From the IMG/VR virus record IMGVR_UViG_3300017952_000104, positions 1 to 23,780 of that record: DNA of 23,780 nt, one strand, 5' to 3'. Made by a program: the position numbers and the translations under genes. This document shows positions 3 through 23,780 of this stretch, piece after piece. The DNA comes from a virus. Position 1 is the stretch's first letter. The number at the start of each line of letters is the position of its first letter. The notes beneath the pieces were generated by a model. It had not been told where the DNA came from, made no database searches, and saw only the letters and a list, made by a program, of their open reading frames with translations.

Positions 3-599
3 TTTAAAGTTGATCAACATTTTGTTGTTCCTATCATGAAGTGCCATGTAGATTTGCCTCATAAGGAAATCGCTGATTATTGTAGGAAAAGATTGCATGA
101 ACATGGTAATTACACTAGTTACTTCGACGACAAATTCAATGATCATATGAAGTTAAACTTTCCTTACCGCAATGCATTAGAAAGCACTTTGAAAGCAGCA
201 GGAAAATTATTTGCCGAAGAAAGGCAGATTGAGACGATACCGTACTTTGACTATTGGTTCTCAGTTTATTGGGAGGGTACGGATCACGTGTTGCATACGC
301 ATCCTGGCACAATAGCAGCAGGAACTTATTATCCTCATGGCGACGAAAACTCCACCAAGATAAGGTTTAGACATCCGGCGGCAACTCTTTTAGCTCACGC
401 TGAACCAAGCAACGACGCCGAAATGTTCTACACTCACTATCCCAAAACAGGTGAGTTGAATTGTTGGCCAAGTTGGTTAGAGCACGAAGTCCGACCGCAA
501 GGGAAGGTTGATCCCCGAAACAGCAGAGTCGCTATATCGTTCAATTATGGCAAGACATCACAGGCGATAATCCGTAGTCCTGAGTGGAAGGCGCACTAA
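3..599 (+). CDS. 2OG-Fe(II) oxygenase-like protein (TIGR02466-type), 5' end outside window
   Basis: This resembles the TIGR02466 group of putative 2-oxoglutarate/Fe(II) oxygenases, common in T4-like marine phages. The frame is open to the left edge: 11 codons before the first ATG (36) read in frame, including QHFVVPI, which looks like the usual start region of the family, so the true start probably lies upstream. Counting from Met36, HTHPG (H87, H89) followed by GTYYP and then PSWLEHEV (H150) and the strand RVAISFNY (R164) fit the H...H...R arrangement of the double-stranded beta-helix. The natural substrate is unknown. It ends 28 nt before the next -35 box. The family call is by recognition; the exact metal ligands are inferred. 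Confidence 0.72.
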   Translation, partial: FKVDQHFVVPIMKCHVDLPHKEIADYCRKRLHEHGNYTSYFDDKFNDHMKLNFPYRNALESTLKAAGKLFAEERQIETIPYFDYWFSVYWEGTDHVLHTHPGTIAAGTYYPHGDENSTKIRFRHPAATLLAHAEPSNDAEMFYTHYPKTGELNCWPSWLEHEVRPQGKVDPRNSRVAISFNYGKTSQAIIRSPEWKAH

Positions 600-19444: not shown

Positions 19445-21247
19445 ATGGCAAAGCAAGAATACCTTGGGATCGAGATAGATCTCTCCCGAGACGACCTCTT
19501 CGACAAACTTGGTCTTCAAAGATTACGCGAAAGTTATATGAGAGAAGATGAAGAGTCGCCTCAACATCGTTTCGCTTTCGTTTCTAAAAAGTTTTCCTCC
19601 AACCCAGAACATGCTCAGCGTCTTTACGATTACGCATCTAAGCATTGGTTATCTTACTCTACTCCTATCCTCGCGTATGGGCGCACGGGAAAGGGTATGC
19701 CAATCTCATGCTTCCTGAACTATATCGAAGACACTGCTGAAGGTCTAGTCGCTAACCTGTCAGAAACCAATTGGTTGTCTATGATGGGTGGCGGTGTAGG
19801 TATCGGGTTTGGCATCCGTTCCTCAGACGAAAAGTCTACTGGCGTTATTCCTCACCTTAAAACTTATGACGCATCTTCCTTGGCGTATCGTCAGGGCAAG
19901 ACTCGCCGTGGTTCCTATGCGGCATACCTTGACATCTCTCACCCAGATATTACTGAGTTCCTTGAGATGCGCAAACCAACAGGTGATCAAAATCGTCGTT
20001 GCCTAAACCTGCATCATGGTATCAATATCAACGATCGCTTTATGGAATTAATTGAGCGATGCATGCAGGATCCTGATGCAGACGATAGGTGGAACTTGAC
20101 CGATCCGCACTCAGGCGAGATCCGCGACACCGTATCAGCGAAAGCACTCTGGCAAAAGATCCTAGAGTTGCGTATGGAGACGGGCGAACCGTACATTCAT
20201 TTTATTGACACAAGTAATCGGATGATGCCAGAGTTTCAAAAAGAACTCGGTTTAAAAATTCATCAGTCCAACCTTTGCTCCGAGATCATCTTGCCAACTA
20301 ACGAGGAGCGCACTGCTGTTTGTTGCTTGTCGTCAGTAAACCTTGAGAACTATGATGCTTGGAGCAAGAACGATATGTTTTTGAGGGACATGGCAGAAAT
20401 GCTTGATAACGTCCTTCAGTTCTTTATTGATAACGCACCCGACACCGTGTCCCGTGCTAAGTTTTCTGCTATGAGGGAACGAAGTATCGGCATCGGTGCC
20501 CTTGGGTTCCATGCTTATCTTCAAAAGAAAATGTTGCCTTTCGACTGTGCTATGGCGAAGGTAACAAATAATCGAATCTTTTCTTTAATAAGGAGGAAAC
20601 TCGATGAAGCAAATATGGAACTGGGTAAAGAACGGGGAGAAGCACCTGACGCCGCAGGCACTGGCAGACGCTTTTCTCACGTTATGGCTATTGCTCCTAA
20701 TGCTAGCAGTAGCATCATCATGGGCAATACTTCTCCAAGTGTTGAGCCATATCGAGCAAATGCTTACAGACAGGATACCCTTTCTGGAGCGTATCTTAAT
20801 AAGAACCGCTATCTAGATCAACTGATTAAATCTAAGATTGAGTCGGGTGAAACTAAGCAGGACTATAATGAAATATGGTCTGGCATTATTGCCAGCGATG
20901 GTTCTGCTCAGCATCTACGGTTTTTGACGCAAGATGAACGCGACGTTTTTAAAACGTCAATGGAGATTGATCAACGTTGGGTTGTTGAACACGCTGCTGA
21001 TCGACAAAACTTTATTGATCAATCTCAGTCAATTAATTTATTTTTCCGTCCTGATACAAATATTGTATACCTGCACGCGGTGCACTTTTTAGCATGGAAG
21101 AAAGGCATGAAGACTTTGTACTACTGTCGGTCTGAGAAACTTGGTAAGGCAGACAGAGTATCGAAGCGTATTGAGCGCGAAGTTATCAAAGAGATAGATA
21201 TGAGCGCAATGGTGAATGATGAAGAATGTATTGCATGCGAGGGATAA
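19445..21247 (+). CDS. nrdA: Ribonucleotide reductase class Ia, large (alpha) subunit
   Basis: NrdA reduces ribonucleoside diphosphates to deoxyribonucleotides together with NrdB. The catalytic set is visible: C89 (PISC), the NLCSEI site with N276, C278 and E280, the second active-site thiol in VCCLSSVNL (C293 or C294), the radical-transfer pair Y559-Y560 (LYYCRSEKLG), and the C-terminal redox pair C595-x-x-C598 (ECIACEG). At 600 aa it is much shorter than E. coli NrdA (about 760) because the N-terminal ATP-cone is missing, as in many phages, so dATP inhibition is probably lost. No intein is seen. SD AAAGGAAG sits at 19433-19440. Confidence 0.95.
   Translation: MAKQEYLGIEIDLSRDDLFDKLGLQRLRESYMREDEESPQHRFAFVSKKFSSNPEHAQRLYDYASKHWLSYSTPILAYGRTGKGMPISCFLNYIEDTAEGLVANLSETNWLSMMGGGVGIGFGIRSSDEKSTGVIPHLKTYDASSLAYRQGKTRRGSYAAYLDISHPDITEFLEMRKPTGDQNRRCLNLHHGININDRFMELIERCMQDPDADDRWNLTDPHSGEIRDTVSAKALWQKILELRMETGEPYIHFIDTSNRMMPEFQKELGLKIHQSNLCSEIILPTNEERTAVCCLSSVNLENYDAWSKNDMFLRDMAEMLDNVLQFFIDNAPDTVSRAKFSAMRERSIGIGALGFHAYLQKKMLPFDCAMAKVTNNRIFSLIRRKLDEANMELGKERGEAPDAAGTGRRFSHVMAIAPNASSSIIMGNTSPSVEPYRANAYRQDTLSGAYLNKNRYLDQLIKSKIESGETKQDYNEIWSGIIASDGSAQHLRFLTQDERDVFKTSMEIDQRWVVEHAADRQNFIDQSQSINLFFRPDTNIVYLHAVHFLAWKKGMKTLYYCRSEKLGKADRVSKRIEREVIKEIDMSAMVNDEECIACEG
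20604..20816 (+). CDS. Possible overlapping small membrane protein inside nrdA, 70 aa
   Basis: In another frame of nrdA, ATG 20604 follows a perfect AAGGAGG (20590-20596) by 7 nt. The product starts MKQIWNWVKNGEKHLTPQ and has one strong hydrophobic helix (FLTLWLLLLMLAVASSWAIL), then an amphipathic basic end. The nrdA codons under the SD are ATA-AGG-AGG, uncommon choices. Against it, a hydrophobic frame can arise by chance, and I know of no such phage gene. Expression is unproven. Confidence 0.3.
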   Translation: MKQIWNWVKNGEKHLTPQALADAFLTLWLLLLMLAVASSWAILLQVLSHIEQMLTDRIPFLERILIRTAI

Positions 21248-21826
21248 ATGGGTGGTTATGTAAAAGATGTAATCCTATCCGAACAAGCATTAGAACAGGC
21301 AAAAGAGTATTACAAGAATAGTGATCACTGGTATCCAGTTTGGCAGTATTATAACCTATTCCATTTGGACAGGTTAGATGTTACAACAGAAGATTATGAA
21401 CTGGAATTTCTTAAAGAACTACATAACTACTCTAGAAAATCGCATATCGTTGGATGTTACTTCCTAAGATATCCTCCTGATTCTTTCACTAGATTGCATG
21501 AAGATTTTGACTCGGAATTGACGATTGTTACGTTAATAGATTCGAAGGATTTGGTGGGAGGAGAATGTATTATATTATCTGAGTATGAATCTCCTGGTCC
21601 CAGACCATCGCACTATGCTTGCGCAAGGCATAATGACAAAGAAAAAGATAAACACGCACCATACGGACTAAACATTGTTCCGGACATAGTAAATTTAGAA
21701 GATGGTCAAAGTATGATATATGGTCCAGACCTGACACATGGAGTGAGTAAAGTATATCAAGGGGAACGAATAGTATTAATAACTTGGTTTAAAAACGGAG
21801 AAAGGAAAAGAAAACATGAGACCTAG
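21248..21826 (+). CDS. 2OG-Fe(II) oxygenase, prolyl-4-hydroxylase-like
   Basis: This 192-aa protein has the facial triad of 2-oxoglutarate dioxygenases: RLHEDFDSE (H84, D86), the downstream strand GGECIILSEYES, and MIYGPDLTHGVSKV (H164), with R174 (GERIVLITWF) for 2-oxoglutarate. Length and order fit the P4Hc/2OG-FeII_Oxy_3 group. It sits between nrdA and nrdB, overlapping nrdB by 11 nt, so it is made with them. The substrate is unknown: protein, nucleotide or host surface component. Confidence 0.8.
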   Translation: MGGYVKDVILSEQALEQAKEYYKNSDHWYPVWQYYNLFHLDRLDVTTEDYELEFLKELHNYSRKSHIVGCYFLRYPPDSFTRLHEDFDSELTIVTLIDSKDLVGGECIILSEYESPGPRPSHYACARHNDKEKDKHAPYGLNIVPDIVNLEDGQSMIYGPDLTHGVSKVYQGERIVLITWFKNGERKRKHET

Positions 21827-22796
21827 TCTAGTCAACGAAAGAGAATACTTTAAACCATTTAATTATCCATGGGCATATGAATCATGGTTGAAGCACGAAC
21901 AATCTCACTGGTTGCATACAGAAGTACCAATGGCAGAAGATGTCAAGGATTGGCAACGCAAACTGTCGCACGAGGAAAAAGCATTCCTCACAAATATTTT
22001 TAGATTCTTCACCCAAGGCGACATCGATGTTGCGGGTGGGTATGTTAACAACTATCTCCCATATTTCAAGCAACCAGAAGTGCGTATGATGCTTGCTGGT
22101 TTCTGTGCGCGCGAGGCACTACATGTCGCGGCATATTCTCATCTCATCGAGACTCTGGGTATGCCCGAATCAACATACAATGAGTTCCTAGAGTACGAAG
22201 CGATGCGCGAGAAGCACGATTACTTCATGGATCTGTCAAATAATAACGGCACTCCTGAATCAGTCGCTACTAACATCGCCGCGTTCTCAGCGTTTACTGA
22301 AGGCATGCAGTTGTTTTCTTCTTTTATCATGTTACTCAACTTCCCGCGTCACGGCAAGATGAAGGGTATGGGTCAAATCGTAACTTGGTCCATCGTTGAC
22401 GAGACTATGCATGCTGAGTCCATGATTAAGTTGTTCCGCACCTACGTTGAAGAAAATATTGAGATTTGGAACGACGACCTCAAGTCTCAAATCTACGTTA
22501 TCGCTGAGAAGATGGTTGCTCTTGAAGACAAGTTTATTGATCTTGCGTTTGCGATGGGACCGATGGAAGATTTGACCCCAGAAGAAGTCAAGCATTATAT
22601 TCGATATATTGCAGATCGAAGACTAATTAGTTTAGGCATGAAGGGAATTTTTAAAGTAAAGAAAAACCCCTTGCCTTGGGTAGAAGAAATGATCAACGCA
22701 CCTACGCACACGAACTTCTTTGAAAACCGTGCTACTGATTATGCTCGCGGTGCGTTAACTGGAGACTGGAAAGAGGTTTGGGGTGCAGCACAATAG
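21816..22796 (+). CDS. nrdB: Ribonucleotide reductase class Ia, small (beta) subunit
   Basis: NrdB holds the di-iron centre and tyrosyl radical that starts NrdA chemistry. Ligands align well: D69 (FTQGDID), E100 and H103 (REALHVAAY), E162 (FTEGMQ), and E196 and H199 (VDETMH). The radical tyrosine is Y107, four residues after H103 as in E. coli Y122. At 326 aa it is slightly short of the typical 340-380. It starts 11 nt inside the oxygenase gene, and its last codons overlap the next gene. Oxygen-dependent activation implies growth in an aerobic host. Confidence 0.95.
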   Translation: MRPSLVNEREYFKPFNYPWAYESWLKHEQSHWLHTEVPMAEDVKDWQRKLSHEEKAFLTNIFRFFTQGDIDVAGGYVNNYLPYFKQPEVRMMLAGFCAREALHVAAYSHLIETLGMPESTYNEFLEYEAMREKHDYFMDLSNNNGTPESVATNIAAFSAFTEGMQLFSSFIMLLNFPRHGKMKGMGQIVTWSIVDETMHAESMIKLFRTYVEENIEIWNDDLKSQIYVIAEKMVALEDKFIDLAFAMGPMEDLTPEEVKHYIRYIADRRLISLGMKGIFKVKKNPLPWVEEMINAPTHTNFFENRATDYARGALTGDWKEVWGAAQ

Positions 22797-23313
22797 GTTA
22801 GACCCTGCTTGGAACAATAGAGCAGTCAGGGAGCAGTTGATACCTGAGTATATCGTTGAGCAACTTCCTGATGAGGACGAGTTATGGTCTTTGGGTAGTC
22901 GTACAGAGCAAGGGTGGTCATGTAGGGGGCAGGACTGGGGTGAACCCATAAGATGGGTTCATCGCTGCCCCGATTTGGTTGAGTCCGGATTGTCACCAGA
23001 ATCATTGGAGGTTATGCGAGAGCAACTAGATTGCGAGTTTGTTGCTATGTTTGCTTCTGATGCGGAAACCACCATAGGCACTTTAAACTGGCACATAGAC
23101 GGTTATCATGTCTATGCCTTTAACATAGAAGGCATTACTGAGTGGCAATGGTTTGATATACATGAGGGGAAAATAAAAAGTATCGTATTAGAACCCAAGA
23201 AAAATATGATCACTATGCCTTCTGGGGTTACGCATAGAGTCATTTTACATACTCCTTATAGGATGTCTGTTAGTATTATACGGACTGCGCATATCAGAGA
23301 CCTGTCTCAATGA
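22783..23313 (+). CDS. Cupin/JmjC-like Fe(II) oxygenase candidate, 176 aa
   Basis: The C-terminal half forms a cupin-type barrel: LNWHIDGYHVYAFNIEG (H104, D106), then LEPKKNMITMPSGVTHRV (H151) and a final basic residue (R160). HxD...H fits JmjC/cupin_8 2OG oxygenases. The N-terminal half is unique. The start is GTG 22783, overlapping nrdB by 14 nt and preceded by AAAGAGG; the next in-frame ATG is too far in. The gene ends in an ATGA overlap. The substrate is unknown, and a non-enzymatic cupin cannot be excluded. Confidence 0.65.
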   Translation: MQHNRLDPAWNNRAVREQLIPEYIVEQLPDEDELWSLGSRTEQGWSCRGQDWGEPIRWVHRCPDLVESGLSPESLEVMREQLDCEFVAMFASDAETTIGTLNWHIDGYHVYAFNIEGITEWQWFDIHEGKIKSIVLEPKKNMITMPSGVTHRVILHTPYRMSVSIIRTAHIRDLSQ

Positions 23314-23780
23314 AAATTTTGATCGTAGCGATCGGGCGTACAGGCAGCACTAATCTAATGCGCTGCCTATCTGAAACTCTAAACCTTAAACTTATAGCAG
23401 AACCCTTTAACACACATTTCTGGAGAGACCTCGAGAAAAGAAAACCAACGTATAAAGAAGGCGACCCTATACCAGATAACTGCGTATTCAAAACCATGAT
23501 AGATCATAACCCAGAATGGTTAAATAAAAATGTAAAAAACTTTTCCCATGTTATAGTGCTTGCCCGTGCGAATATTCGCGAGTTGTGTATAAGCGGAGTC
23601 AATGCTGTAAAGTATGGATATTATCATGAATACGAACCAACAGAAATTCCTTACATAAACAATTTTGTGCATGAAGCTACGAAGTACAGAAAACTATTTC
23701 AGTTTGCTGCTTTACACCCAAAATCTAAACTGGTGTTTTACGAAGATCTATATAACAAGAATACGTCGATTGTAGAAAAC
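23310..23780 (+). CDS. Sulfotransferase-like protein, 3' end outside window
   Basis: The N-terminus MKILIVAIGRTGSTNLMRCL has the 5'-phosphosulfate loop of PAPS sulfotransferases (R10-T-G-S-T14). A second strand-helix with VIVLARANIRELCIS (R86...S95) fits the 3'-phosphate binding motif. EPFNTHFW resembles the segment after the first helix in Stf0/NodH-like enzymes. Such enzymes move sulfate from PAPS to a carbohydrate or lipid acceptor, unknown here. It starts in an ATGA overlap, and 157 codons are visible with the frame open to the window end. Confidence 0.72.
   Translation, partial: MKILIVAIGRTGSTNLMRCLSETLNLKLIAEPFNTHFWRDLEKRKPTYKEGDPIPDNCVFKTMIDHNPEWLNKNVKNFSHVIVLARANIRELCISGVNAVKYGYYHEYEPTEIPYINNFVHEATKYRKLFQFAALHPKSKLVFYEDLYNKNTSIVEN

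Follow-up and report, generated by a model that had tools for sequence, protein, structure and literature searches.

In this T4-like virus of bacteria, the gene between the ribonucleotide reductase genes nrdA and nrdB is predicted to encode an active 2OG-Fe(II)-dependent oxygenase, P4H/PKHD-like and from the PF13640 side of the superfamily. The reading we favour, with a probability of roughly 0.4, is that this protein belongs to a mobile phage family, is co-translated with the nrd genes and acts on a purine-like base or nucleotide, the substrate being putative. Since distant homologues lie within viral pathways for modified DNA letters, nucleotides and not the reductase are its probable target. 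The nrdA-nrdB gap, judged by its content in related phages, is a cargo slot with many unrelated occupants. Location in this gap therefore does not speak for a participation in the reductase reaction, and the gene position must not be taken as a sign of reductase function.

The window, i.e., the whole stretch of DNA that was analysed, covers a whole IMG/VR virus record (23,780 bases), and all genes described here lie on its plus strand. The nrdA gene (19445..21247) encodes the class I ribonucleotide reductase large subunit of 600 aa (PF02867, 3.5e-107; PF00317, 1.5e-11; phrog_84, 7e-167). Its TAA stop codon ends at 21247 and is followed directly by the ATG of the oxygenase gene (21248..21826, 192 aa); both genes thus abut with zero overlap. 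The oxygenase gene overlaps nrdB (21816..22796; reductase small subunit, 326 aa; PF00268, 1.3e-74) by 11 bp. The overlap between nrdB and the following gene for a JmjC_2/cupin-like protein (22783..23313) is 14 bp, provided that the GTG start at 22783 is correct, and a further, partial gene (23310-23780) starts right after the cupin-like ORF with an overlap of 4 bp. The original prediction had placed a 2OG-Fe(II)-type oxygenase between nrdA and nrdB, a cupin/JmjC-like HxD...H protein 3' of nrdB and a third 2OG-like gene at the window start. All three were found, and the coordinates and frames were correct. Overlapping frames had also been taken to indicate co-expression with the reductase; the overlap exists at the oxygenase/nrdB junction, but nrdA and the oxygenase gene only abut. 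From the gene layout, co-expression of the oxygenase with the reductase is likely. The NrdB protein has D69, E100, H103, Y107, E162, E196 and H199, which we take to be the positions of the di-iron ligands and the radical tyrosine of E. coli NrdB.

As had been proposed, H84, D86, H164 and R174 are intact in the oxygenase. In the 2OG-Fe(II) oxygenase superfamily, the 2OG carboxylate is bound by an Arg or Lys that follows the distal His, a place taken here by R174. The pattern HxD-(40-150)-H-(8-10)-R arose in 3310 of 20000 shuffles of the oxygenase sequence, so the motif alone is weak evidence. We aligned 71 homologues, for which the truncated rows L187, L188, L206 and L207 were dropped and the window protein, L054 and L055 were added. 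Each of the four residues, i.e., the HxD...H triad and the distal Arg, was conserved in 71/71 sequences. A loss of metal ligands in relatives, named beforehand as evidence against the prediction, thus did not occur. PF13640 (2OG-FeII_Oxy_3) matched 11/14 family members at E<=0.01 (best 1.7e-5). The match of the window protein spans residues 72-181 and reached 18.4 bits, below the cut-off of 27 bits; the best member from the nrdA-nrdB slot reached 26.1 bits, and L200 from the que clade described below exceeded the cut-off with 30 bits. Weak matches to PF09859 (Oxygenase-NA) were obtained for 8/14 members (best 2.5e-5), with at best 24.3 bits against a cut-off of 26.2. When a profile of 14 oxygenase members was compared to one built from five other phage 2OG proteins, the probability was 89.9% (E 1.7e-6), while two control profiles (NrdB and the cupin-like protein) gave 0.3% each. 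Conservation of the four residues in 71/71 sequences, PF13640 matches in 11/14 members and the profile-profile match together make the identity as an oxygenase firm.

With PF13640 and the PKHD-type Fe2+-dependent dioxygenase PRK05467, presumably PiuC/YbiX, the window protein shares the HxD...H with an Arg at +10. A distant family member passes the PF13640 cut-off at 1e-6 and has a C-terminal PRK05467 match of 1.2e-8. The window protein, by contrast, stays below both cut-offs and has an N-terminal QxYNLF motif, which is (nearly) fixed in the reductase-linked clade and mostly retained outside of it. A search against the sequences of solved structures gave no meaningful match for the oxygenase. 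AlphaFold models reached a pLDDT of 33.6 with a shallow alignment of 7 sequences and 41.3 for a second model with 4 sequences. The name "DNA endonuclease" of phrog_2297 was rejected as a function of the oxygenase; the label looks wrong, because the same model also matches other 2OG-FeII_Oxy_3 genes in a related phage.

The dN/dS values of the oxygenase were 0.07-0.23 in those pairs of relatives with usable dS; part of the pairs showed saturation with NG86, and three rows had an undefined dN/dS. These values indicate that the gene is under purifying selection between the compared relatives. It evolves much faster than the reductase, with 57% identity where NrdA has 96% and NrdB 93%. Within one and the same genome pair (window 19445-23313 versus L051 and L020), synonymous divergence of the oxygenase far exceeded that of nrdA, which suggests gene exchange or recombination within the operon.

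A search of viral loci with a profile from diverse slot members resulted in 72 family loci, 45 with a reductase gene in the locus and 27 without. In 39 of the 45 reductase-linked loci, nrdA was located just upstream and nrdB just downstream. Four showed only nrdB (fragments beginning in or near the oxygenase gene), one had nrdA just upstream and an extra gene before nrdB, and in one nrdB was located farther downstream. In the tree all 46 reductase-linked rows fell into one clade (support 92/92), and nine que-linked rows formed another (support 94/85). Seven context labels on this tree need only the minimum of six changes, which together with the single reductase-linked clade fits one entry into the nrdA-nrdB slot; the family appears to have entered this slot once. 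Among the 27 reductase-free loci, 9 had the order QueE-oxygenase-phosphoribosyltransferase-QueD. The other 18 had a glycerophosphodiesterase-like neighbour (6), tail sheath or terminase (5), a cpn10-like gene (3) or other contexts (4), several of these labels being short motifs read by eye. The family was thereby found in six or more kinds of neighbourhood, the majority of which form a clade each. Against 50,697 phage records the window oxygenase gave no match at E<=1e-3, four family members including it gave none at the limits used, and the best E for a fifth member, L020, was 2. A pattern scan of the genome contigs resulted in 49 matches, none of them a relative, and little was gained from scans with the alignments A1 and A5.

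The link to nucleotides comes from the nine que-linked loci. Here the oxygenase gene lies between a gene for a QueE-like radical SAM protein and a phosphoribosyltransferase gene, followed by QueD where the flank suffices. HMM searches with representatives identified the cassette neighbours as QueE (TIGR03963, 1.3e-11), Pribosyltran (4e-11), PTPS/QueD (3.6e-14) and GTP cyclohydrolase (1.2e-53). We also surveyed 80 QueE loci, 70 of them with >=500 nt after QueE. The oxygenase followed QueE directly in 28/70 loci, a number that is biased upward and is not a population frequency, because the QueE query came from oxygenase-positive loci; 7 of these 28 contigs were shared with the nine found by the family profile. 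In 66 QueE loci with >=1200 nt of flank, oxygenase and transferase were found together in 26, the oxygenase alone in 0, the transferase alone in 1 and neither in 39 (Fisher p 1.6e-17, a value that ignores relatedness). On the QueE tree the state of the oxygenase changes at least 4 times, 2 of these changes being forced by well-supported branches, so that oxygenase and phosphoribosyltransferase appear to come and go together. In the que cassettes, the likeliest substrate is accordingly a base or nucleotide.

QueC was present in 8/21 que-type records, 3/11 oxygenase-positive and 5/10 oxygenase-negative ones, without a clear rule. TGT was found in 0/21 of these records, a search that may overlook DpdA2-type proteins. 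In the oxygenase-positive que cassettes of L247, L251, L258, L259, L264, L271, L272 and L291, two additional, weak members of the oxygenase family lie in tandem just upstream of QueE. In the phage QueE proteins of L198, L200, L202, L204 and L208, the second and third cysteine of the apparent radical SAM motif are separated by about 40 residues.

Phage cassettes for 7-deazaguanine DNA modification have been described (PMC6884629), and the likeness lies in the distant oxygenase homologues that sit in QueE/QueD/FolE cassettes. In the available part of that text, DpdA is named for insertion, and a modified dGTP, produced by some phages, is mentioned as a possible substrate for the polymerase; a search of the text gave 0 occurrences of "oxygenase" and "phosphoribosyl" (PMC6884629). 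Unlike these cassettes, the phages with the oxygenase between nrdA and nrdB showed no que genes in their two longest contigs, G001 (151.7 kb) and G008 (153.9 kb), both of which carry the nrdA-oxygenase-nrdB order. A phmmer search (E<=0.01), in which two que loci served as positive controls, detected no QueE, QueD or FolE in G001 or G008; it covered one of the two contigs up to its last 883 bases, and the contigs are possibly incomplete. QueC was found in neither contig. The que clue stems from a different clade than that of the window, for whose own clade no que genes were found in G001 and G008. Portal, Gp23, terminase and UvsX show G001 to be T4-like. Thymidylate synthases, considered as markers of modified pyrimidines, were uninformative (PF00303 in 0/3 and PF02511 in 1/3 related contigs).

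A modification of phage nucleotides or DNA, one of the roles originally suggested, therefore has indirect support from the QueE-oxygenase-phosphoribosyltransferase-QueD cassettes but not from the window phage itself, the best-covered relatives of which showed no que genes. We counted against the nucleotide reading the missing que genes in G001 and G008 and the 18/27 reductase-free loci in other contexts. If it is correct, members of the family would move between auxiliary-gene slots of T4-like phages, and the oxygenase of the window would be translated from the nrd mRNA. It would hydroxylate or oxidatively trim a purine-like base or nucleotide, as may happen in the related que cassettes, and the altered nucleotide would then pass through the nucleotide supply of the phage. 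The link to nucleotide metabolism and the pairing with the phosphoribosyltransferase provide a concrete, testable substrate class and a set of four genes that can be expressed. A more specific version, which we regard as improbable, is that the family oxidises purine-like bases or nucleotides and, together with the phosphoribosyltransferase, converts 7-carboxy-7-deazaguanine, the product of QueE, to a novel oxidised nucleotide of the 7-deazaguanine type. This would enter DNA via the dNTP pool without a DpdA transglycosylase, and the nrdA-nrdB clade would feed a comparable nucleotide through the phage reductase. If true, such T4-like phages would have a hitherto undescribed modified base in their DNA.

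Proteins are frequent substrates of P4H-like enzymes. The oxygenase could be a prolyl-hydroxylase-like enzyme whose target is a protein of the host or the phage, with the nrdA-nrdB gap as a mere landing site for cargo. The nearest Pfam family (the P4H-type PF13640) and the nearest NCBIfam family (the PKHD-type dioxygenase PRK05467), the structural genes among the related contexts and the unrelated cargo in the slot are in line with this. Protein hydroxylation leaves the strict pairing with the phosphoribosyltransferase in the que cassettes unexplained, and the Oxygenase-NA profile also matches members of the family, if weakly. We consider it somewhat unlikely, and because 18/27 reductase-free loci lie in unrelated places it stays a serious rival. 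Less likely again is a generic cargo enzyme that modifies small molecules or glycans, without a fixed partner and with its own substrate in each clade. This would agree with the variety of neighbourhoods and with one member, the que-cassette oxygenase L198:3908-4939, which forms an in-frame fusion with a domain resembling GT29 sialyltransferases (PF00777, 3.6e-14). The 151-kb relative G001 also has a carbamoyltransferase (L022:10712-12235; PF16861, 6e-42) and a flavin halogenase-like gene (L026:1968-3407; PF04820, 2.4e-83). Against generic cargo, two of the best-sampled contexts both belong to nucleotide metabolism.

The content of the nrdA-nrdB gap was surveyed in the best 80 viral loci with a close NrdB (100-81% identity), and nrdA could be placed upstream in 70 of them. 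The gap held the oxygenase in 14 of these 70 loci and was empty, i.e., <150 bp, in 10. Other occupants included glutaredoxin-like (16), thioredoxin-like (10) and QueC-like (9) proteins and IscU (4), and a desaturase, a nitroreductase and a protein of the ErpA/IscA type were also present among the 70. The oxygenase was found in 14/17 of these loci with NrdB identity of >=88% and in 0/53 loci below. Its presence on the NrdB tree needs 4 changes, of which the starred branches force only one; the oxygenase may have been lost or gained more than once. L058, L066 and L070 (NrdB 89-91%) have no oxygenase in the gap, and the gap of L068 is only 55 bp long, a possible loss of the oxygenase inside the clade. 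None of 13 inspected annotated phage records had an oxygenase between nrdA and nrdB.

A function for the reductase itself, in which the oxygenase would modify NrdB or NrdA or handle the iron and oxygen of the enzyme, agrees with its position directly beside nrdA, nrdB or both in 44/45 reductase-linked loci, with no member of this clade having been found elsewhere and with the retained metal ligands and tyrosine of NrdB, but we regard it as very improbable: the close relatives L058, L066 and L070 manage without the oxygenase, L068 has just 55 bp in the gap after a possible loss, other phages place a dozen or more unrelated genes there, and the gap held the oxygenase in 0/13 annotated records. 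The suggested tuning of the iron/oxygen chemistry of NrdB gained no support from these data, nor from the homologues located far from any reductase.

QueC-like (PF06508) proteins occupy the same slot in the sister phages L066, L067, L072, L074, L088, L091, L093, L094 and L095, in L067 and L095 as two proteins in tandem. Their matches are confined to parts of the QueC profile, and the proteins may represent a different PP-loop ATPase. Glutaredoxin (PF00462) was present in 0/3 oxygenase-positive and 2/3 oxygenase-negative contigs, numbers too small for a conclusion.

T4-like cyanophages have several 2OG-Fe(II) genes per genome, as seen here; in the part of the source available, one cyanophage, Nanhaivirus ms29, has eight such ORFs (PMC10436341). 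Several 2OG genes in one T4-like phage are ordinary. In S-RIM2 a 2OG-Fe(II) gene follows about 3 kb after nrdB, and, unlike in the window, nrdA and nrdB overlap or almost overlap in the 4 inspected cyanomyoviruses. The literature search, covering the available text of sources such as PMC10436341 and PMC6359870, found no report of the nrdA-oxygenase-nrdB or the oxygenase-que arrangement. Substrates of the several 2OG-Fe(II) oxygenases of T4-like marine phages are not given in the available parts of the literature examined.

The cupin-like protein (22783..23313, 176 aa) has H104-x-D106, H151 and R160-x-S162, and these five residues (H104, D106, H151, R160, S162) are invariant in 8/8 members. It shares the HxD...H and a weak profile match with JmjC_2 (PF08007), presumably ribosomal-oxygenase-like proteins: 7/8 members matched at E<=0.1 (best 7.2e-6), and the window copy (0.051) reached 13.5 bits, below the cut-off of 22. 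No meaningful match to solved structures was obtained for it. The gene is missing 3' of nrdB in part of the clade, and in L053 it is followed by a further 2OG-type gene. Neither the partial gene at 23310-23780 nor a full-length copy matched Pfam; by eye, its start resembles a P-loop sulfotransferase.

The first ORF (3..599), cut at its 5' end by the window start, encodes an ordinary 2OG-FeII_Oxy_5 protein (PF13759, 2.5e-13, above the cut-off; phrog_81, 2e-21) that reads HTH, not HxD, at the matched place. It lies about 20 kb from the reductase genes, is unlinked to them and has a 63% relative in G001.
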